Source: Candidatus Stahliibacteriota bacterium
Lineage (GTDB): Bacteria; Hydrothermota; UBA3072
Assembly: GCA_004377355.1 (NCBI GenBank)
Contig: SOIB01000103.1
Coordinates: forward strand, 1-42,453
Reading direction: 5' to 3'
DNA: 42,453 bases
Both the position numbers and the translations under genes were made by a program. Positions 363-41,264 of the stretch are shown here, one piece after another. Every line of letters starts with the position of its first letter. Position 1 is the stretch's first letter. The notes below the pieces were generated by a model. That model was given only the letters and a program-made list of their open reading frames with translations. It did no database searches and was not told the origin of the DNA.

Positions 363-390
363 TTGAAAAATAAGTGGGTTTTGTTATAAT
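363..390 (+). promoter_or_regulatory. Sigma70-type promoter of alr (TTGAAA-N16-TATAAT), 6 nt from ATG
   Basis: -35/-10 match at canonical spacing; -10 ends at 390 and ATG is at 397. Confidence 0.7.
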
Positions 391-396
391 CCATCT

Positions 397-1485
397 ATGA
401 GAACTTCTTGTGTTGAGATAAATCTAGAGAATTTTGAGAAAAATATAAAAACCGCAAGGGGAAAACTGGGTGATAAAAAAATCCTTGCTGTTGTGAAGGC
501 AGATGCTTACGGTCATGGAGCTGTCGCTATATCCACAAGAGCATCAGCAAAAGGAATTGACTTTCTCGGAGTAGGTATCGTGGAGGAAGGGATTGAACTT
601 AAGAATGCTGGGATACAGACACCAATCCTAATTCTTTCTCAGGAATTGGAAGAGAGGGTAGAGGAGATTGTTCGATATAATCTTTATCCAACTATCTGCT
701 CGAGGAATTTTTTGGACGCTCTGGATAGAGAAGGGAAAAGGCAGAATAAGATTATTGCTCTTTTTATTTTACTGGATACAGGTATGGGTAGATATGGACT
801 TGTTCCTGATGAGTTTATTTATTTCTTGAAACTGATAAAAAAAATGAGTTGGGTTCGTATTGAGGGTGTTATGTCTCACTTTCCGATTGCTGGTGTAGAT
901 TTTCAATTTACAAGAGAGCAGATTGAAAACTTTAAAAAATTGATTCAATCAGCCGAATCAATGGGAATAACAATACCTATAAAAAGTTTAGCAAATTCAG
1001 CAGCATTTCTAACAGATAAAGATTCAATATTTGATATGGTTAGATTGGGGCTTATACTTTATGGTATCTCTCCCCTTCCAGATAAAGGACAGAATGAATA
1101 CCTTCCTGTGATGACGGTAAAGAGTAAGATATCATTTATAAAAACCATACCTCCTGGGCATTCTGTAAGTTACACGAGGAGCTTTATAGCAAAGCGACCA
1201 ACGACAATAGCAGTGGTACCCATAGGGTACGCTGATGGATACGATAGAAAACTCTCTAATAAGGGCTGGATGCTGGTGAAAGGTGAAAAAGCACCGGTTA
1301 TCGGTGATGTAACTATGGATGCTACAGTTATCGATATTACAGATATTCAAGATGTTAAAATTGGTGATGAGGTTATTATTATGAATACATCAGTGACTGC
1401 ATGGGAAATATCAGATGCAATTGATACAATACCTTATGAAGTAATTTCACGTATGGGCAAGAGATTGCCAAGGGTGTATATCTAA
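397..1485 (+). CDS. alr: Alanine racemase
   Basis: N-terminal AVVKADAYGHGA PLP-lysine motif and C-terminal GYADGYDR motif; full-length 362 aa. Confidence 0.97.
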   Translation: MRTSCVEINLENFEKNIKTARGKLGDKKILAVVKADAYGHGAVAISTRASAKGIDFLGVGIVEEGIELKNAGIQTPILILSQELEERVEEIVRYNLYPTICSRNFLDALDREGKRQNKIIALFILLDTGMGRYGLVPDEFIYFLKLIKKMSWVRIEGVMSHFPIAGVDFQFTREQIENFKKLIQSAESMGITIPIKSLANSAAFLTDKDSIFDMVRLGLILYGISPLPDKGQNEYLPVMTVKSKISFIKTIPPGHSVSYTRSFIAKRPTTIAVVPIGYADGYDRKLSNKGWMLVKGEKAPVIGDVTMDATVIDITDIQDVKIGDEVIIMNTSVTAWEISDAIDTIPYEVISRMGKRLPRVYI

Positions 1486-6066: not shown

Positions 6067-9000
6067 TTAAGAAATCTTCTGTATCTTTTTTAATTCTCTC
6101 TGTATATCTTGAATATACCAGGAGAATTTAATGTCTTTGTAAATACTTAATGCCTTATTGAAATGCTTTTTTGCTTCCTTTGGATTTCCCGAGTATACAT
6201 AAAATTTACCAGCCCCTCTATGGACCTCCGCTACATTGTATATATCCTCAGACTTCTTGGCGTATTCCATTGCCATTTCAATATAACGCACACCCCATTT
6301 TCCCCATTCTTTTTTTGAATAAAATTGTGCCCATAATAAATAGATGGAGATAAGAAGTGGTATGTCATCTACTTTCTTTGCCAGTGGAAGAAGTAAATCT
6401 TTTAATATATTTATTCCATCTTCAATTTCTCCAATTTCGAGATAATATTTTGCCTTTGCAGTGTGAAAGCGAGCCAGTGTAATCCCCGGATCTATTTTTG
6501 ATAGCAATTTTTCTCCCTTTTTCAGATATTGCTCAGCCTTTTCTATGTTCCGTAAATATTCTGTATACACTGTTACCATATTTGCGTATATTCGAACTAG
6601 TTCTTCTGGTGATTCTGTCTTTTTTGCTTCCTCCTCTGCCAGTTTATATAGATTTAAGGCATCTTTATGGGATCCTTTAATCAGGGATATGTAACCAAGT
6701 GAATTAAGTAGTAATACTTTGCTTTTTATTCCTCCCACCCACTCTTCCATCTCAAGAGCTTTACGAAGATAATTCTCTGCCTTATTTAATTCATTTCTCC
6801 TCATCTCCAAATTTCCAAGGTTGAATAAAGTGACAATTTCTCCCTCTTTAAAACCTGTGTCACCGTATATCTCCATAGCCTTCTCTGAATATCCCTTTGC
6901 ATTATTCAAATCATTCATATGTAAGTATACATTAGCCATATTAGTGTATAAAGCACCAACTCCTTTTTTATATCCAATGTCTTCTGTTATTTTTCTCGCT
7001 TCGTCATATAATTTTAAGGATTTATTGTTTTTGCCTCTACGGCGGTTTATAGTAGCCATTGTATTTAGTGCCTGAGCATACTCTTTGGGGAAACGCTCTT
7101 TATCTATTCTCACAATCGCCCGTTCAGCACTCCTTACTGCAGATTTTTCTTTTCCCATCTCCATATAAACCCAGGCCATATAAGGGTCGCAGCTATACTT
7201 ATCCTGTCTGCTTGAATAGTTTTTTCTTGCTTCCCGGAGGTTGAAAAGAGCCATTGTATAATTGCCTAAATCAACATATGTATGCCCTAATTCCTTGTAA
7301 ATTCCAGCTTTTTCTCTTTTATCTTCGATATTATTCAATGCTCGGTTAAAATTCTCAATAGAATTAGCATATTCACCTTTAATTGATAATTCTTCTCCAA
7401 TTTTCTTATATATTCTACCACGTCTATCTGCTCCCATTTCTCCTTCTAATGCCCAATTGTAAAGCCTTATTGCCTCATTATGGGCGTAGATAGATCTAGC
7501 ATTGTCTCCTGCCATTTCAGCGTATTCAACCGATTTCTTCTTATTTCCAGAATTATAATAGTGATAGGCTAATTGTTCAAATTTTTCTGGAGCATCTGAA
7601 AGTGTTTTTTCAATCGTTTCTGCTATCTTTTCATGTAGTTTTCTTCTGGTGCCGGTGGGTATTTTATCCACAATTACCTGTCGAATAACATCTTCTTTAA
7701 AGGAGTAAATGTTACCTTCTTTTTCATGTAAGAATTGAAACTCCTTCAACTGATCCAGTTGATCATAGAGTTCGCCTTCATTTAATTCTGTTATCGAGTG
7801 AAGTAGAGAAAAATCAAAATCCCCTCCAATTAGCACTGCAATATTTGTAACTTCAAGGAGTTTTTCATCCACCAGGGATAACTTATGAGTAACGGCGTCT
7901 TCAATCGTTTTAGGTATATGGAAACTTACGCTTTTATCGAGTTCATATCCATCTTCAGTTTTATAGAGTGCTCCTGATTCCTTCATTTCTTTCAAGATTT
8001 CTTCTACAAAAAATGGATTTCCACCACTCTCTTTATAGATAAATTTTACTAAAGAAGGAAACACTCTATTGTTTAATATAGTGCCTATCATTTCTTCAGT
8101 GGAATTCTCATCCAGTGTTTCTAATGAAATTTCTCTGTAGAGCCCCTCTCTTCCTATAAGGGAAATTTTTTCACTGAATGGTGTCCCTTTGATTTCTTCT
8201 GACCTGTACGTCCCGAATATAGGATATGATGCTTTCCTTGATTTTAAAAGGAAATGCAAGAGGTCTAATGTGGAATCGCTTGCCCAGTGTACATCATCGA
8301 AAAGTATAGCTAAAGGTACCTTCTCTGAGAATTTATCAATAAATTTTGTAATTGTGTCAAAGAGCATCAATCTATCGCCTGTTATCTTTGAGAACCCCTG
8401 AGTTAGATTAGGCAGAAAATTTGAAATTACACGTTTTTGAGGTAAGTTAAGATGTTCAACAAAAATCTCACGGGCTGTTTCCTCATATTTTGAGACTAAA
8501 CTTTGTAAGACATGTCTAGCAGCGTAATATGGAGATTGACTCATAGCCGGATAAGATGATCCTGTGAATAAAATTCTGTCAGGAATGAGAGGTATTACTT
8601 CATTAACCAACCTGGTTTTTCCAACACCTGCTTCCCCGCTTATTATAATCAAATTATTTTCTTCTCTTTTTGTGTATTCACTGCAGAGAGAGAGTTCTCT
8701 CTTTCTCCCAACAATCCTTATTGTTGGTATCTGCAACTCTTCTCCTGAAATCTCTTTAAGACCAATTCCGCCCTTATTTACTCTTTTAACCTGATACATC
8801 CGTCTGTCTGCGATTTGGAATAGAGATTTCCACTCAGAACCATCTTTAGGAAAAGACGAAATCCCACAGGAGGCTGAGAGAGAATATCCATCAAAAGTTT
8901 TTCTTTTTACCTTATCTAATATTCTCTTCATTACTGCGTATGATTGTTCTTTCTTAGTGTTAGGGAATATTATAATAAACGCGTCCCCCCCATACCGAAC

Positions 9001-9246
9001 GATCATATCAGCTGCTCTTAGCTCATCCTGCAAGAATTGGGAGAACTGTATTAGAACATTATCTCCAACAAGGTGACCTTTAAGGTCGTTTATCTGTTTA
9101 AAGTCATCAAGGTCTATTAATGCAATAGATAGTGGAAGACTGTATCTTTTACATCTTGCCAATTCAGTGTTTATCCATCCACCTAAATATCTTCTATTAT
9201 ATAGACCAGTTAGTTCATCAATAAAACTCTTTTGTATCATATACAT
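6067..9246 (-). CDS. GGDEF-like domain + STAND/AAA_16 ATPase + TPR repeat regulator
   Basis: N-terminal FIDELTGLYNRRYL...RAADMIVRYGGDAF; Walker A GEAGVGKT; Walker B LAILFDDVHWASD; long C-terminal TPR array. Confidence 0.9.
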   Translation of the reverse strand: MYMIQKSFIDELTGLYNRRYLGGWINTELARCKRYSLPLSIALIDLDDFKQINDLKGHLVGDNVLIQFSQFLQDELRAADMIVRYGGDAFIIIFPNTKKEQSYAVMKRILDKVKRKTFDGYSLSASCGISSFPKDGSEWKSLFQIADRRMYQVKRVNKGGIGLKEISGEELQIPTIRIVGRKRELSLCSEYTKREENNLIIISGEAGVGKTRLVNEVIPLIPDRILFTGSSYPAMSQSPYYAARHVLQSLVSKYEETAREIFVEHLNLPQKRVISNFLPNLTQGFSKITGDRLMLFDTITKFIDKFSEKVPLAILFDDVHWASDSTLDLLHFLLKSRKASYPIFGTYRSEEIKGTPFSEKISLIGREGLYREISLETLDENSTEEMIGTILNNRVFPSLVKFIYKESGGNPFFVEEILKEMKESGALYKTEDGYELDKSVSFHIPKTIEDAVTHKLSLVDEKLLEVTNIAVLIGGDFDFSLLHSITELNEGELYDQLDQLKEFQFLHEKEGNIYSFKEDVIRQVIVDKIPTGTRRKLHEKIAETIEKTLSDAPEKFEQLAYHYYNSGNKKKSVEYAEMAGDNARSIYAHNEAIRLYNWALEGEMGADRRGRIYKKIGEELSIKGEYANSIENFNRALNNIEDKREKAGIYKELGHTYVDLGNYTMALFNLREARKNYSSRQDKYSCDPYMAWVYMEMGKEKSAVRSAERAIVRIDKERFPKEYAQALNTMATINRRRGKNNKSLKLYDEARKITEDIGYKKGVGALYTNMANVYLHMNDLNNAKGYSEKAMEIYGDTGFKEGEIVTLFNLGNLEMRRNELNKAENYLRKALEMEEWVGGIKSKVLLLNSLGYISLIKGSHKDALNLYKLAEEEAKKTESPEELVRIYANMVTVYTEYLRNIEKAEQYLKKGEKLLSKIDPGITLARFHTAKAKYYLEIGEIEDGINILKDLLLPLAKKVDDIPLLISIYLLWAQFYSKKEWGKWGVRYIEMAMEYAKKSEDIYNVAEVHRGAGKFYVYSGNPKEAKKHFNKALSIYKDIKFSWYIQDIQRELKKIQKIS

Positions 9247-9252
9247 GTAATT

Positions 9253-9280
9253 ATTATAAAAAAAAATAATAAAATGTCAA
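9253..9280 (-). promoter_or_regulatory. TTGACA-N16-TATAAT promoter, 6 nt from ATG of the GGDEF/STAND gene
   Basis: Perfect -35 and -10 hexamers on the minus strand. Confidence 0.85.
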
Positions 9281-9618: not shown

Positions 9619-9647
9619 TTGACATTTAATGTTATATTCAATATTCT
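9619..9647 (+). promoter_or_regulatory. TTGACA-N17-TATTCT promoter of lpdA, 6 nt from GTG
   Basis: Canonical hexamers and spacing; GTG start at 9654. Confidence 0.8.
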
Positions 9648-9653
9648 TCCCAG

Positions 9654-10994
9654 GTGAGATTAGGGATAATAGGGGGAGGTCCTGGTGGGTATAGTGCAGC
9701 TCTTCGGGCCTCTCAAAAAGGACTGGATACCACTATATTTGAAAAAGAAGAAATAGGTGGTGTATGCCTTAATGTAGGTTGTATACCTACAAAAGCATTA
9801 ATTACATGTGCTAACTTACAAAATTCCCTTAAAAAATCAAAGCGTTTTGGTATAAATGTAGAGGTAAAATCCTCAGACTGGGAGAAAATCCAGGATTTTA
9901 AGGCAAGTGCAACTAAACGCCTGGTTCTTGGGGTGTCAAATCTCCTTCGTAAGAGAGGTATCGGAATAATAAAAAAGAAGGCAAAGTTATTGGATGAATT
10001 TGTAATTGAAGCAGGGAGTAATAGGTATGAGTTTGATAGAATTATCATTGCAGCGGGTTCTCTTCCTAAGAAACCTACATTCCCAATAGTGGAAGGCATG
10101 TGGGATAGCTCGGATGCAATCAATTCCCAAGTGATTCCACAATCATTAACCATTATTGGCGGTGGTGTGATAGGATTGGAATTTGCACATATATACGCTT
10201 CCTTCGGAAGTGATGTTTCTATTATAGAGTTGGAAAGTGAGATTCTTCCCGGAGAGGATAAAGATTTAGCAGCGTCCTTACGAAAGACATTTGAGAAAAG
10301 GGGTATCCGATTCTACATTTCTGCATCAGTTAAAGAAATAAAAGCCGATGAGAACTTCAAAATAAATTTTCTTCATAATGGTGAGAAAAAGGAATTAGAA
10401 GCGGATAAAGTTCTGCTTTCTATTGGTAGAAGTCCCTTTATTCAGGAATTCGCTAGTAATCTAACAGTTGAGGGTGAAGCAATTAAGGTGGATACACATT
10501 TAAGAACCAGTGTTAAAAATATCTATGCAATAGGAGATTGTATTGGTGGTAATTTACTTGCTCATGCTGCTTATAAGGAAGCAGAGATTGCAGTTCGAAA
10601 TATCCTCGGAGAGGATATTGAAATTGATGAGAGGGTAGTTCCCAGAGTTGTCTACACGAATCCCGAATTTGCTTCAGTGGGTTTTACCGAAGACGAGCTT
10701 AAGAGAGAGGGAATGGACTTTGAACGGGCTAGATTTCCATTTTCTGGTAACCCTCGGGCAATAGCATCAGGTGAAACAGTAGGTGAAGTCAAAATATTTT
10801 ATAATAAAAAAGGAGAGATATTAGGAGGGTGTATTATTAATATTGAAGCTTCTGAGTTAATTTCTCAAGTTTCTATTGCTATGGAATATGGGATTAATGT
10901 CAAGAAACTCTCAAGTGTAGTTTTTCCTCACCCTACACTTTCAGAAGCGATTAAAGAAGCCACTTCAATTGCTGACGGGAATCCAATTCATTAA
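9654..10994 (+). CDS. lpdA: Dihydrolipoyl dehydrogenase
   Basis: GIIGGGPGGYSAALRA, redox-active GVCLNVGCIPTKAL, C-terminal VFPHPTLSEA. Confidence 0.95.
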   Translation: MRLGIIGGGPGGYSAALRASQKGLDTTIFEKEEIGGVCLNVGCIPTKALITCANLQNSLKKSKRFGINVEVKSSDWEKIQDFKASATKRLVLGVSNLLRKRGIGIIKKKAKLLDEFVIEAGSNRYEFDRIIIAAGSLPKKPTFPIVEGMWDSSDAINSQVIPQSLTIIGGGVIGLEFAHIYASFGSDVSIIELESEILPGEDKDLAASLRKTFEKRGIRFYISASVKEIKADENFKINFLHNGEKKELEADKVLLSIGRSPFIQEFASNLTVEGEAIKVDTHLRTSVKNIYAIGDCIGGNLLAHAAYKEAEIAVRNILGEDIEIDERVVPRVVYTNPEFASVGFTEDELKREGMDFERARFPFSGNPRAIASGETVGEVKIFYNKKGEILGGCIINIEASELISQVSIAMEYGINVKKLSSVVFPHPTLSEAIKEATSIADGNPIH

Positions 10995-23479: not shown

Positions 23480-23508
23480 TTGACATTTGAGCGTTTTTTT
23501 GTTATAGA
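23480..23508 (+). promoter_or_regulatory. TTGACA-N17-TATAGA promoter of purD, 9 nt from ATG
   Basis: Hexamers and spacing; ATG at 23518. Confidence 0.8.
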
Positions 23509-23517
23509 TATAAGAAA

Positions 23518-24783
23518 ATGAAGGTAATGATAGTTGGTAGCGGAGGTCGGGAGCATACCCTTGGATGGACACTTGCCAGGAGCTTCGAGGGAAGAGATTT
23601 TTACTTTGTCCCAGGTAACGGTGGGACGATTACAATTGGTCATAATATAGAATATATAAATAATTACGATGATATGACTAAGTTTGCTAAGGAAAAGGGT
23701 ATTGACCTTACAGTCGTAGGTCCAGAGAAACCATTAGTTTCTGGCATAGTAGATAAATTTAGAGAGGAAGGACTACGGATATTTGGCCCCACAAGAGAAG
23801 CAGCCCAATTGGAGGGGAGCAAAGTGTTTGCAAAAGAACTTATGAGGGATGCCCGTGTTCCAACTGCTAATTTTGAGGTTTTTGATAATTTTAATGGAGC
23901 AAAGAACTATATTGAAAAAATAAAGTGTCCATTTGTGATAAAAGCAGATGGCTTGGCAGGTGGGAAAGGAGTATTTGTATGTGTGAACGTTGGTGAGGGA
24001 GTAAGAGCTCTTGAATTGGTAATGCTTGAAAAGAAGTTTGGAAGCTCTGGAGATAAAGTAGTAATTGAAGATTGTCTTACAGGTCAAGAAGTCTCTGTGC
24101 TTGCATTGGTTTCTGGAGATAGGGTACTACCTTTTTTGCCTTCTCAGGATCATAAGAGAATATTTGATGAAGATCGTGGTCCAAACACTGGTGGTATGGG
24201 TGCATATTCTCCAGTACCTTTCATGAGAAAAGGTGAATTGGTTGAAGTGAAAGAAAAGATATTTTTACCTACAGTAAAAGAACTACTTAGGAGAGGAATC
24301 GAATATAATGGTGTACTCTATGCAGGTTTAATGATTACAAGTAGAGGACCTATGGTACTTGAGTTCAATGTTAGATTTGGTGACCCGGAGTCTCAGGCAA
24401 TATTTCCCTTGTTGGAGGACGACTTTCTTGAATTGTTATTCAAAACTCTTGATGGTGAATTACCAGATAAAATCAACTGGAGTGGAAAATCTGCAGTAGC
24501 TGTTGTAGTTGCCTCAAATGGATACCCTGGTCATTATGAGACTGGATTTGAAATAGTTATCCGTGACCACCCCTGTATCTTGTTCCATGCTGGAACCAGG
24601 ATAGAGGACCGTGTTCTCTATACCAACGGTGGCAGAGTTCTTTCTGTAGTCGGATTAGGCAATAACCTTATGAATGCTAAAGAAAAGGCGTATAGTTGTA
24701 TCAAGAAGATAAAATTTTCCAATATGTTTTTCCGAAATGATATTGGCGATAAGGGAATTAAGCAAATTAAGCGAAGGGTTTAG
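23518..24783 (+). CDS. purD: Phosphoribosylamine-glycine ligase
   Basis: MIVGSGGREHTLGW, GADGLAGGKGVFV-type ATP-grasp motifs, NVRFGDPESQAI. Confidence 0.97.
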   Translation: MKVMIVGSGGREHTLGWTLARSFEGRDFYFVPGNGGTITIGHNIEYINNYDDMTKFAKEKGIDLTVVGPEKPLVSGIVDKFREEGLRIFGPTREAAQLEGSKVFAKELMRDARVPTANFEVFDNFNGAKNYIEKIKCPFVIKADGLAGGKGVFVCVNVGEGVRALELVMLEKKFGSSGDKVVIEDCLTGQEVSVLALVSGDRVLPFLPSQDHKRIFDEDRGPNTGGMGAYSPVPFMRKGELVEVKEKIFLPTVKELLRRGIEYNGVLYAGLMITSRGPMVLEFNVRFGDPESQAIFPLLEDDFLELLFKTLDGELPDKINWSGKSAVAVVVASNGYPGHYETGFEIVIRDHPCILFHAGTRIEDRVLYTNGGRVLSVVGLGNNLMNAKEKAYSCIKKIKFSNMFFRNDIGDKGIKQIKRRV

Positions 24784-27729: not shown

Positions 27730-28182
27730 TTAACCTTCCAGGGAATCACGTAATTCTTTACGCGCTCTATTTAATCGGGATTTCACAGTTCCTATTTCCA
27801 CATCAAGGATATCGGCTATTTCTTTATAGTTCAACTGATTTATTTCTCTTAAGATAATTACTTCCTTTAATTTTGGTGACAATTTTTCAATTCCCCTCTC
27901 GATATCCAATTTTAGATCTATATCACGCCTTTTTCGTCTTATAAATGGCATTAAATTTAGCTTTCTTTTTTCCCTGCGCCAATGATCATAGACAGTGTTC
28001 CTTGCTACTGTGATAAGCCAAGCTTTCATATTCTCTATTTTGTCTATGTCAGATTTCATTACTTTTACAAAAGTATCCTGCAATAAATCCTCCGCCACAG
28101 CTTTATTTTGAACCATACCATATATAAATCCATAAATATAATCAACGTATTGCTTGTAAATTAATTCAATTTCTAATTTCAT
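27730..28182 (-). CDS. ECF-family RNA polymerase sigma factor
   Basis: Sigma2 AEDLLQDTFVKVMK...AWLITVARNTVYDHWRR and sigma4 REINQLNYKEIADILDVEIGTVKSRLNRARKELR. Confidence 0.95.
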   Translation of the reverse strand: MKLEIELIYKQYVDYIYGFIYGMVQNKAVAEDLLQDTFVKVMKSDIDKIENMKAWLITVARNTVYDHWRREKRKLNLMPFIRRKRRDIDLKLDIERGIEKLSPKLKEVIILREINQLNYKEIADILDVEIGTVKSRLNRARKELRDSLEG

Positions 28183-28189
28183 AATTAAA

Positions 28190-28215
28190 GACGATAAAAG
28201 GCTCTAATATGTTCC
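28190..28215 (-). promoter_or_regulatory. Candidate ECF-type promoter GGAAC-N17-CGTC upstream of the sigma gene
   Basis: Minus strand GGAACATATTAGAGCCTTTTATCGTC, 7 nt before ATG. Confidence 0.6.
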
Positions 28216-28558
28216 GTTTTCTTCTCATTTAATGTATTATAGAAAGATAAATACCTTCATATTACGTTTATAGTTGACCATGAAACCAGGAATTCTGTTA
28301 TGAATAACATCATTTACACATCGCTTGGAATATTAAAGGGGTTTTTAAATGATAGTTTCTTATCATACTATGATTATTATATATATAAAATAACGAGTAG
28401 TCAATAATTTATATAGCGTCTCAAAATTTCCACCGGAGCTACAGAATCTAGATATCTTCAGGAATTTTAAATTCTCATAAAATTTATTCATAAAGAGTTT
28501 TACTTTCAAAAAAGACCATAATCAAATGAGTATTCGTCTGTATTTAATATACCACCCC

Positions 28559-32929: not shown

Positions 32930-33830
32930 ACACAGTTTTCATAAAGTGTTCTTCAAGGCTCATCCGTTGCGGAACGACAGAAATGACACTTCCACCTTTT
33001 TCGGTTATAAGTTTTATTACCTTATCCCTTTTTTCTTCATCTGAAGTTCTAATGTATGTTACTTCCCCTTCTTCTCTTAAATTGCCATATTTTTTTAACC
33101 ATTCTTTCTTTTTTATCCCCTCGATTTCAATATCTGTGTATCGGATGTCAGTCTTAAGGATTTCTCTCAAATAACCAATTTTTTTCATCTTACCCTCAAT
33201 AATTATTCCGACTCTGTTACAGATAGCTTCAACATCGGATAAAATGTGCGAAGAGAGGAGTATGGTTTTACCGGAACTATTAACTTTTTGAATAAGATCT
33301 TTCAATTCTTTTCTACCAATAGGGTCGAGACCACTCAATGGTTCATCAAGAATCAAAAGATCTGGATCACCAATAAAAGCCTGTGCAAAACCAATTCTCT
33401 GAATCATACCTTTTGAATAAGTAGAAATTCTTCTATATATATCTTTTTTAAGTCCTACTAACTCGAGTATTTCCTCTAACTCTTCTTCTTTTGTATTCCT
33501 ATCATATAATCTGCTGTAAAATCTGAGTAATTCTATTCCATTGAGATGTCTGTAAAATGTAGGATTTTCAGGAAGGAATCCCATTCTCTTTTTTGCCAAA
33601 ATCATATCCATTCCTCCCCAAAGCATTACACTTCCAGAACTTGGTTTTAGTAAGCCAGTAATAATCTTTAATACGGTTGTTTTGCCTGCTCCATTCGGCC
33701 CCAGTAACCCAAAAGTTTCTCCTTCTGCAACATCCATATTAAGACCATTTACACCAAAAGTTTTCCTTCTCATGAACGGAGAAGAATATATTTTAACAAG
33801 ATTTTTAATCTCGATTACCTTCATTTCCAC
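32922..33830 (-). CDS. ABC transporter ATP-binding protein
   Basis: Walker A GPNGAGKTT, signature YSKGMIQRIGFAQA, Walker B LLILDEPLSGLDP. Confidence 0.95.
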   Translation of the reverse strand: MEMKVIEIKNLVKIYSSPFMRRKTFGVNGLNMDVAEGETFGLLGPNGAGKTTVLKIITGLLKPSSGSVMLWGGMDMILAKKRMGFLPENPTFYRHLNGIELLRFYSRLYDRNTKEEELEEILELVGLKKDIYRRISTYSKGMIQRIGFAQAFIGDPDLLILDEPLSGLDPIGRKELKDLIQKVNSSGKTILLSSHILSDVEAICNRVGIIIEGKMKKIGYLREILKTDIRYTDIEIEGIKKKEWLKKYGNLREEGEVTYIRTSDEEKRDKVIKLITEKGGSVISVVPQRMSLEEHFMKTVYE

Positions 33831-34933
33831 ACTCCTGCAATCGCTTTTTTACAGGTAGGACATTTATTAGTTTTAATTTTGCTCTCAATAATTGAATATC
33901 CTCTTCTCCTAATGAGTAACTCACCACAACCAGGACAATAAGTGTTAGTTCCAGGGTGATCGATTGGGACATTTCCAACATAGGCATAATGAACCCCCAT
34001 TTCCATAGCCATATTCCTTGCATCTTCCACTGTTTTAAGTGGTGTTCTTGGTAAGTTTTCCAATCTGTATGTTGGATAAAAACGGGAGAAATGAAGAGGG
34101 ACATCAGATCCAAGGTTTCCAAGCAACCATTTGATCATTTCTTTTATTTCTTCCCTTCCATCATTTATAGTTGCTACTATCAAATATGTTATCTCCAGCC
34201 ATACACCCCCTTCTTTTAAATCCTTTAAAGTCTCTAGAACTGGTTTAAGGGTAGCATTTGAGATATTTAAATAGTTCTCGTTAGTGAAAAATTTAAGATC
34301 CACATTAGCTCCATCAAGATAAGGTATAATTTCCCTTAACGGTTTCTTTTTGATATAACCAGCAGAGTGGTAAATGTTCCTTATCCCATGCCTTTGGGCA
34401 ATTACTGCAGAATCTATCATATATTCGATGAAAATCGTTGGTTCAGTATAAGTATAGGCTATTGTTTTGATGTCATATTTCTTTTTATAATGGAGTAAAT
34501 TGTTTATCAAATCCTCGGGAGGGAGTTTATAATTCCTTGTATATTCAGGTTTTACTTGGGAGATCGTGTAATTCTGACAGTATTTACATCGTAGATTGCA
34601 TCCAGCTGTTGCTATGGAAAAGGCAATAGTCCCGGGTAGGAAGTGATATAGCGGTTTCTTTTCAATCGGGTCAAGGTGAACAGCACATGGATTACCATAA
34701 ACAAGGGTATATAAACTTCCATCTCTGTTTTCCCTGACCCTGCAGAGTCCTCTTTTCCCTTCATCCAGAATACACTGATGGGGGCAATTTTGGCACTTTA
34801 CTTTCTTATCCGGTAATTTCTCCCAGTATAATGCAATGCGAGGTTCTACATAACCAAAGGATTCTTTCTGACCATAAGCTTTTAGCGCAAAAGGTAAGGT
34901 TAATAATGTTTTCAAAAAATCTCTTCTATTCAT
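33821..34933 (-). CDS. amrS: AmmeMemoRadiSam-type radical SAM enzyme with Tat-like N-terminus
   Basis: CNLRCKYCQN radical SAM motif, CQNCPHQCILDEGKRGLCRVREN, C-terminal CPGCG...CPTC ribbon, N-terminal MNRRDFLKTLLTLPFAL. Confidence 0.88.
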   Translation of the reverse strand: MNRRDFLKTLLTLPFALKAYGQKESFGYVEPRIALYWEKLPDKKVKCQNCPHQCILDEGKRGLCRVRENRDGSLYTLVYGNPCAVHLDPIEKKPLYHFLPGTIAFSIATAGCNLRCKYCQNYTISQVKPEYTRNYKLPPEDLINNLLHYKKKYDIKTIAYTYTEPTIFIEYMIDSAVIAQRHGIRNIYHSAGYIKKKPLREIIPYLDGANVDLKFFTNENYLNISNATLKPVLETLKDLKEGGVWLEITYLIVATINDGREEIKEMIKWLLGNLGSDVPLHFSRFYPTYRLENLPRTPLKTVEDARNMAMEMGVHYAYVGNVPIDHPGTNTYCPGCGELLIRRRGYSIIESKIKTNKCPTCKKAIAGVWK

Positions 34934-34941
34934 CCAACAAC

Positions 34942-34969
34942 ATAATATTTAATATTAGTGCAAAGTCAA
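34942..34969 (-). promoter_or_regulatory. TTGACT-N16-TATTAT promoter of amrS, 8 nt from ATG
   Basis: Hexamers and spacing on the minus strand. Confidence 0.7.
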
Positions 34970-40334: not shown

Positions 40335-41264
40335 ATGAAAAAGACTCTCTTGATTGTTGCACTTGTTGTGTTACTGGTTAGTTTATCCGTCAACGGAGCA
40401 GCAACTGCAAGGATGGATCTATGGGATGTCTATGACAACTTCTTAGTAAAGGCAAAATATGTGGACCTTACCCATGCATTTATGCCTGATCAACCAGTCT
40501 GGCCAGGCTTTGGTAATGCGAAGTTTGAGCCAACAAGGGCTGGTGCAGACCTTGGAGATTATGCAAGTAAGGGTGATGTGTTCACCTATGAAGCTCACGG
40601 ATTCATTGCTACTACTTATTATATTCCAACCGACCAATATGGAACCCAGCTCGATCCCCCAGCACACTGGGATGCCTACTATGCTACAATAGATGAGTTA
40701 CCAGCTACATACTGTGTAAGACCATTAGTGGTCATTGATATTTCAAAGAAATATGCTGAGACTCCTGGCTATCACGGTCAGGTAGATGATATAAAAGCCT
40801 GGGAGGAGAAACATGGAATGATTCCGGAAGGCTCAGTGGTTATGTTCCGTTCAGACTACTACACGACCTGGCCTGCAAAAGACTTCAATGCAAAACCATT
40901 CCCAGGTGTACACATCGATGCTCTTAAGTTCCTGCACAATGAAAGACATATTCTCTTCCACGGACATGAGGCTCTGGATACTGATACGACACCTTCTCTT
41001 GAAGGTGAATACTGGCTGATGCACAATGGTTTCTGCCAGGCTGAGGGTGTGATGAATCTCGATAAGGTTCCTGCTAAGGGAGCACTTATTGCAATCGGCT
41101 ATGCGAAACCTATGGGTGGAGCTGGTGGATATGCGAGATATATAGCTATCTGTCCTCCTGATTGGGAATACGGAGTTTCTGTTGTAGAGGTACCTGGTGC
41201 TCCAACTATCAAATACGATAAGCCTCTCGTCTGGGATTCAAAGAAAGGAATGAGGACGAGATAA
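40335..41264 (+). CDS. Exported cyclase family protein (kynurenine formamidase/isatin hydrolase-like fold)
   Basis: Signal peptide MKKTLLIVALVVLLVSLSVNGAATA; YVDLTHAFMPDQPVWPG, YGTQLDPPAHWD, HILFHGHEALDTDTTPSLEGEYWLMHNG. Confidence 0.88.
   Translation: MKKTLLIVALVVLLVSLSVNGAATARMDLWDVYDNFLVKAKYVDLTHAFMPDQPVWPGFGNAKFEPTRAGADLGDYASKGDVFTYEAHGFIATTYYIPTDQYGTQLDPPAHWDAYYATIDELPATYCVRPLVVIDISKKYAETPGYHGQVDDIKAWEEKHGMIPEGSVVMFRSDYYTTWPAKDFNAKPFPGVHIDALKFLHNERHILFHGHEALDTDTTPSLEGEYWLMHNGFCQAEGVMNLDKVPAKGALIAIGYAKPMGGAGGYARYIAICPPDWEYGVSVVEVPGAPTIKYDKPLVWDSKKGMRTR

Follow-up and report, generated by a model that had tools for sequence, protein, structure and literature searches.

Six genes in the window, by which we mean the whole 42,453-nt stretch of DNA analysed here, are preceded by promoters that lie almost directly against the start codon (Table 1). 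The original prediction had described near-consensus −10 boxes 6–9 nt from the start at all six and concluded that leaderless mRNAs are common. Reading the boxes directly bears this out for alr, the GGDEF-STAND gene, lpdA, purD and amrS, i.e., in five of the six genes a sigma-70-type −10 box lies 6–9 nt 5' of the start codon, at the individual distances that had been proposed. The −35 boxes of these five are TTGAAA, TTGACA or TTGACT, with spacers of 16–17 nt. The strict TANNNT form of the −10 box is found in four of the six, purD having TATAGA and the ECF sigma gene CGTC. Inspection of the upstream sequences found no Shine-Dalgarno (SD) sequence before the start in any of the six genes.

The window is enriched for such genes: 6 of its approximately 17 unit-leading genes are predicted to be leaderless, as against an estimated 10% or so genome-wide. 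SD sequences were confirmed at ugd, groES, groEL and the gene at position 40335.

Two of the encoded proteins have further features of note. The GGDEF-STAND gene encodes a fusion protein of 1059 residues that joins a GGDEF domain, an AAA/STAND ATPase and TPR repeats. The amrS-like protein, which has several paralogues in the same genome, starts with MNRRDFLK, an N-terminus that is conserved in the family and unusual in radical SAM enzymes.

Table 1. Promoters and predicted leaderless genes of the window. Distances in nt are those between the −10 box and the start codon.
Feature	Position	Strand	Elements or domains	Basis
alr promoter	363..396	+	−35 TTGAAA 363–368, N16, −10 TATAAT 385–390, 6 nt, ATG 397; SD absent	
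alr, alanine racemase, predicted leaderless	397..1485	+	Pfam PF01168/PF00842, domain from residue 8	
GGDEF-STAND promoter	9247..9280	−	−35 TTGACA 9280–9275, N16, −10 TATAAT 9258–9253, 6 nt, ATG 9246	sequence only
GGDEF + AAA/STAND ATPase + TPR protein, predicted leaderless	6067..9246	−	Pfam GGDEF (residues 8–156), AAA_16, TPR repeats	
lpdA promoter	9619..9653	+	−35 TTGACA 9619–9624, N17, −10 TATTCT 9642–9647, 6 nt, GTG 9654	
lpdA-like pyridine nucleotide-disulphide oxidoreductase, GTG start, predicted leaderless	9654..10994	+	Pfam Pyr_redox_2 from residue 4	
purD promoter	23480..23517	+	−35 TTGACA 23480–23485, N17, −10 TATAGA 23503–23508, 9 nt, ATG 23518	
purD, predicted leaderless	23518..24783	+	GARS_N domain from residue 1	
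ECF sigma factor, predicted leaderless	27730..28182	−	Pfam Sigma70_r2 (residues 8–73), Sigma70_r4_2	
ECF sigma gene promoter, ECF-type	28183..28215	−	−35 GGAAC 28215–28211, N17, −10 CGTC 28193–28190, 7 nt, ATG 28182	
20-codon ORF with sigma-70-like −10 box	28166..28241	−	TATAAT 28241–28236, 7 nt, ATG; weak −35	
amrS-like radical SAM protein, predicted leaderless	33821..34933	−	Pfam Radical_SAM; start MNRRDFLK, twin-arginine-like	
amrS promoter	34934..34969	−	−35 TTGACT 34969–34964, N16, −10 TATTAT 34947–34942, 8 nt, ATG 34933	

The ECF-type promoter of the sigma factor gene

For the ECF sigma gene, the predicted distance of 7 nt stands, but for a promoter of another type. A sigma-70 reading was rejected, as the best match (TATCGT) scores 6/12 and no sigma-70 −10 box occurs near the ATG. 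What the gene does carry is GGAAC-N17-CGTC, and the gap from CGTC to the ATG is exactly 7 nt. This arrangement, with (C/T)GTC as the −10 element, recurs in every one of the six family genomes and in the two genomes of a sister family from the same order, and the gene is probably autoregulated. Because an ECF-type promoter is also found 7 nt from an ATG, this case shows that the tight promoter-start spacing, as read from these motifs, is independent of the housekeeping sigma factor.

A search with GGAAC-N16–18-CGTC for further members of an ECF regulon returned eight sites, against a mean of 2.8 and a maximum of 7 for permuted hexamers, and among the eight only the site in the window clearly precedes a gene. 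For these reasons we do not claim an ECF regulon. A sigma-70-like TATAAT box with a weak −35 lies before an ORF of 20 codons, which in a different frame overlaps the beginning of the ECF sigma gene; this is possibly a second, leaderless upstream ORF.

Distances between −10 boxes and start codons across the genome

The genome is a 1.81-Mb MAG of 211 contigs, from which stretches totalling about 0.87 Mb were analysed. Genes were called by codon usage with a simple home-made caller, which misplaces some starts. A site counted as promoter-like if it had a TANNNT core and matched 9 or more of the 12 consensus letters, and d is the number of nucleotides from the −10 box to the start codon. Since some contigs had been picked for carrying TATAAT-N6-ATG, which biases the counts, an unbiased contig subset was analysed separately.

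As the original prediction had anticipated, the genome-wide distribution of distances has a sharp peak at 6 nt. Sites with d = 6 precede 19 of 323 unit-leading genes in the 0.87 Mb, with 1.7 expected per position (Poisson p ~3e-14), and 10 of 143 lead genes in the unbiased subset, with 0.76 expected (8e-9). No promoter-like sites with d = 6 were found at operon-internal genes of the same stretches, and the same pipeline gave no such sites at d = 5–9 in E. coli, where there are few strong sites. Without gene calls, counting any ATG downstream of all promoter-like sites gave 33 at d = 6 against about 10 per position, and the peak persists when all ATG and GTG candidates near a start are admitted. 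TANNNT counted alone stands out only weakly at this distance from the AT-rich surroundings, and adding the −35 box sharpens the peak. TATAAT-like sites show no peak at 25–37 nt, the range of archaeal TATA boxes; the promoters here are of the −35/−10 type.

Genes with a promoter at d = 5–9 are strongly depleted in SD sequences (2 of 35, versus 123 of the 288 other lead genes; p 5e-6). The −35 match is also better beside −10 boxes at d = 5–9 than elsewhere, both in G000 and in the relative G016, while in a second relative, G018, this coupling was not significant. In G016, with a spacer of 16, the match to TTGACA averages 5.0 of 6 letters, versus approximately 1–2 elsewhere. The promoters of the leaderless type in G016 have a nearly strict 16-nt spacer and lie at d = 5–8 before ATG; those in G018 have TATAAT or TAAAAT mostly 6–7 nt before ATG and a poorer −35 than in G016, resembling the Deinococcus pattern.

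With alternative starts allowed, the leaderless share of lead genes comes to about 10% here, 15–16% in G016 and 14–22% in G018 depending on the threshold; these shares have a considerable error margin and leave out genes such as purD, whose boxes do not fit TANNNT. By this estimate about 10% of transcription units would be leaderless here and 14–22% in the two relatives, which makes the mode common, not dominant. The claim that leaderless mRNAs are common in this genome is thus upheld by the peak and the SD depletion, with 5' ends deduced from promoter position and with the window above the genome average.

The SD mode is also in regular use. The 3' end of the 16S rRNA of this genome reads GGATCACCTCCTTTCT, with an intact anti-SD, and an SD-like site precedes 67% of operon-internal genes. 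Together with the SD-led ugd and groES, this agrees with the earlier proposal that two modes of initiation, SD-led and (as predicted here) leaderless, coexist in the genome.

Conservation among relatives and spread over the phylum

In other genera, alr, purD, lpdA, amrS and the ECF gene keep their promoter-to-start spacing but not the flanking sequence. All six genomes of the family keep the alr promoter (TTGAAA or TTGCAA, a TATAAT-like box, 6–7 nt, ATG), and one genome of the same order also keeps its −10 box and spacing. In eight relatives purD is preceded by TTGAC(A/T) and a TATAAA- or TAAAAT-like −10 box 6–10 nt from ATG; in other relatives, where purD has another gene context, an SD takes the place of the promoter, as in G008 (AAAGGAGGTTAA-ATG). 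The GTG start and spacing of lpdA are kept in G001 and G004, and G002 and G005 have an ATG start and a spacing of about 10 nt. For amrS, the other five genomes of the family and G009 have TTGACA with a −10 box 7–8 nt from ATG.

Across 147 genomes of the phylum, the exact pattern TTGACA-N16–18-TATAAT-N5–8-ATG occurs 3015 times, versus 927 times with N25–28, and many of the latter matches show a real SD. Most of the well-populated families have a near/far ratio above 2, and counts are highest in f11 and f33. Ratios of about 1 or less are seen in f8, f22, f26 and f28, and f25 is nearly without matches. Family f8, to which G018 belongs, still has a peak at d = 6 once imperfect −35 boxes are admitted. 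In 37 other genomes, many of them probably richer in GC, 25 near and 18 far exact-consensus matches were found. These counts suggest that the leaderless mode is spread over most families of the phylum.

Leaderless initiation as a proposed second mode

In our reading, which we hold with high confidence, ordinary promoters with the −10 box 6–9 nt before the start codon yield leaderless mRNAs and provide a second mode of initiation beside the SD mode. With this placement, transcription would begin on, or within about 4 bases of, the first coding base. We infer the positions of the RNA 5' ends from the usual spacing of 6–8 nt between −10 and +1, for which d = 6 sets +1 on the A of ATG. At purD (9 nt), amrS (8 nt) and the lpdA genes of G002 and G005 (10 nt), a leader of 1–4 nt could be present. 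An mRNA with no usable leader or SD would require the ribosome to initiate directly at the 5'-terminal AUG (or GUG), and such initiation at the 5' end, which is known from other bacteria, is assumed here by analogy. Operon-internal genes and a large share of unit-leading genes would use normal SD initiation, and the leaderless mode would serve about a tenth of transcription units, including one gene with an ECF promoter in place of a housekeeping one.

In a genome of 36% GC, TATAAT-like hexamers are frequent at every distance, and the boxes near starts might be chance matches in AT-rich intergenic DNA. Chance should not, however, produce a peak that is sharp to one base (19 versus 1.7) and missing at operon-internal genes, or boxes that are coupled to TTGACA at 16–18 nt and keep their spacing across genera, so that as a general explanation it is refuted and has almost no probability left, even if single sites could be fortuitous. 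The same coupling of TANNNT, at a fixed distance from the start, to an upstream TTGACA speaks against the idea that the A/T-rich element acts as an unstructured, S1-binding enhancer of translation within a leadered mRNA. A/T-rich unstructured 5' regions aid initiation in several SD-poor bacteria, but the ECF gene carries GGAAC-N17-CGTC and no A/T-rich tract, and we consider this function extremely improbable as well.

Two further explanations accept the boxes as promoters. If starts were misassigned, the true starts would lie downstream behind an SD and the mRNAs would be leadered, and the N-termini of the STAND, amrS and ECF proteins could indeed accommodate a later start. Pfam domains, however, begin at residues 1–8 in the predicted leaderless alr, lpdA, purD, RuvX, Ndk, cytidylate kinase (Cmk), GalT, GpsA, BtuR and an Era-like GTPase (at residues 1–6 in purD, BtuR, Ndk and Cmk), so that most of the genes checked could not accommodate a start codon further downstream. 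N-terminal residues are conserved from the first codon in alr, as MR-(T/P)-S, and in amrS, as M(N/D)RR(D/E)FLK. Internal starts preceded by an SD were found in none of 35 near-promoter genes, versus 8 of 84 SD-led genes. The start codons of the predicted leaderless genes thus appear to be correctly placed, and misassignment is very unlikely. Slightly less remote, though still unlikely, is that more distant upstream promoters give rise to most transcripts and the leaderless start to a minority. Several lead genes do show promoter-like sites at other distances; on the other hand, near-perfect and conserved promoters are expected to be active, and a longer leader would have no SD to use.

Leaderless initiation, our preferred reading, has clear precedents. 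Leaderless bacterial genes are known in Actinobacteria and Deinococcus-Thermus, as a minority way of starting translation. Mycobacterium and Streptomyces combine SD-led and leaderless initiation in one genome and use both AUG and GUG starts. They are high-GC Actinobacteria of another lineage with a different promoter composition. A survey of 953 bacterial genomes described TA-led leaderless genes in which TANNNT precedes the start by about 12 bp (Zheng et al., 2011; PMC3160421). As in those genes, TANNNT lies here about 12 bp upstream (first T to start, equal to d = 6), without an SD, in genes scattered among SD-led ones; unlike there, a strong and conserved TTGACA −35 usually accompanies it. 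Archaeal leaderless genes, with a TATA box approximately 25–37 bp upstream (PMC3160421), share an mRNA that begins at the start codon, as predicted here, and differ in lacking the bacterial −35/−10 boxes seen here.

The −10-adjacent ORFs of Deinococcus-Thermus, which are experimentally supported and account for roughly a third of genes (Zhong et al., 2025; PMC12340547), also have a −10 box at fixed spacing directly before the ORF throughout a phylum, with a leaderless mRNA that is supported by experiment there and predicted here. The present case differs in a lower estimated share, in one ECF promoter and in mostly canonical −35 boxes, which are carried in G000 and G016 and match more weakly in G018, the Deinococcus-Thermus type being defined by a −10 box that would suffice alone, with the −35 dispensable. 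The phylum studied here is not, under any recognised name, among the groups named as having leaderless genes by Zheng et al. (2011), and no report of leaderless mRNA in either WOR-3 or Cloacimonadota turned up in the literature searches. Novelty would lie in the lineage and in the presence of an ECF promoter among the cases; the kind of initiation is already known.

A wider proposal holds that leaderless initiation is ancient in the candidate phylum and has been retained throughout it as a second mode. It would serve at least a fifth of the transcription units of some families and would not depend on the sigma factor, with ECF-driven genes having adopted the tight spacing as well. We put this forward tentatively, at somewhat less than an even chance. 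Judged from sequence alone, the findings would add a lineage that branches deeply and is mostly uncultured to the small number known to use leaderless initiation as a regular mode. If the phylum is WOR-3, as we suspect, the recently isolated thermophile strain sy37 (PMC12285271) might permit direct mapping of 5' ends. In these genomes, gene callers that expect an SD may assign wrong starts, which can be corrected by the conserved −10-to-ATG rule.
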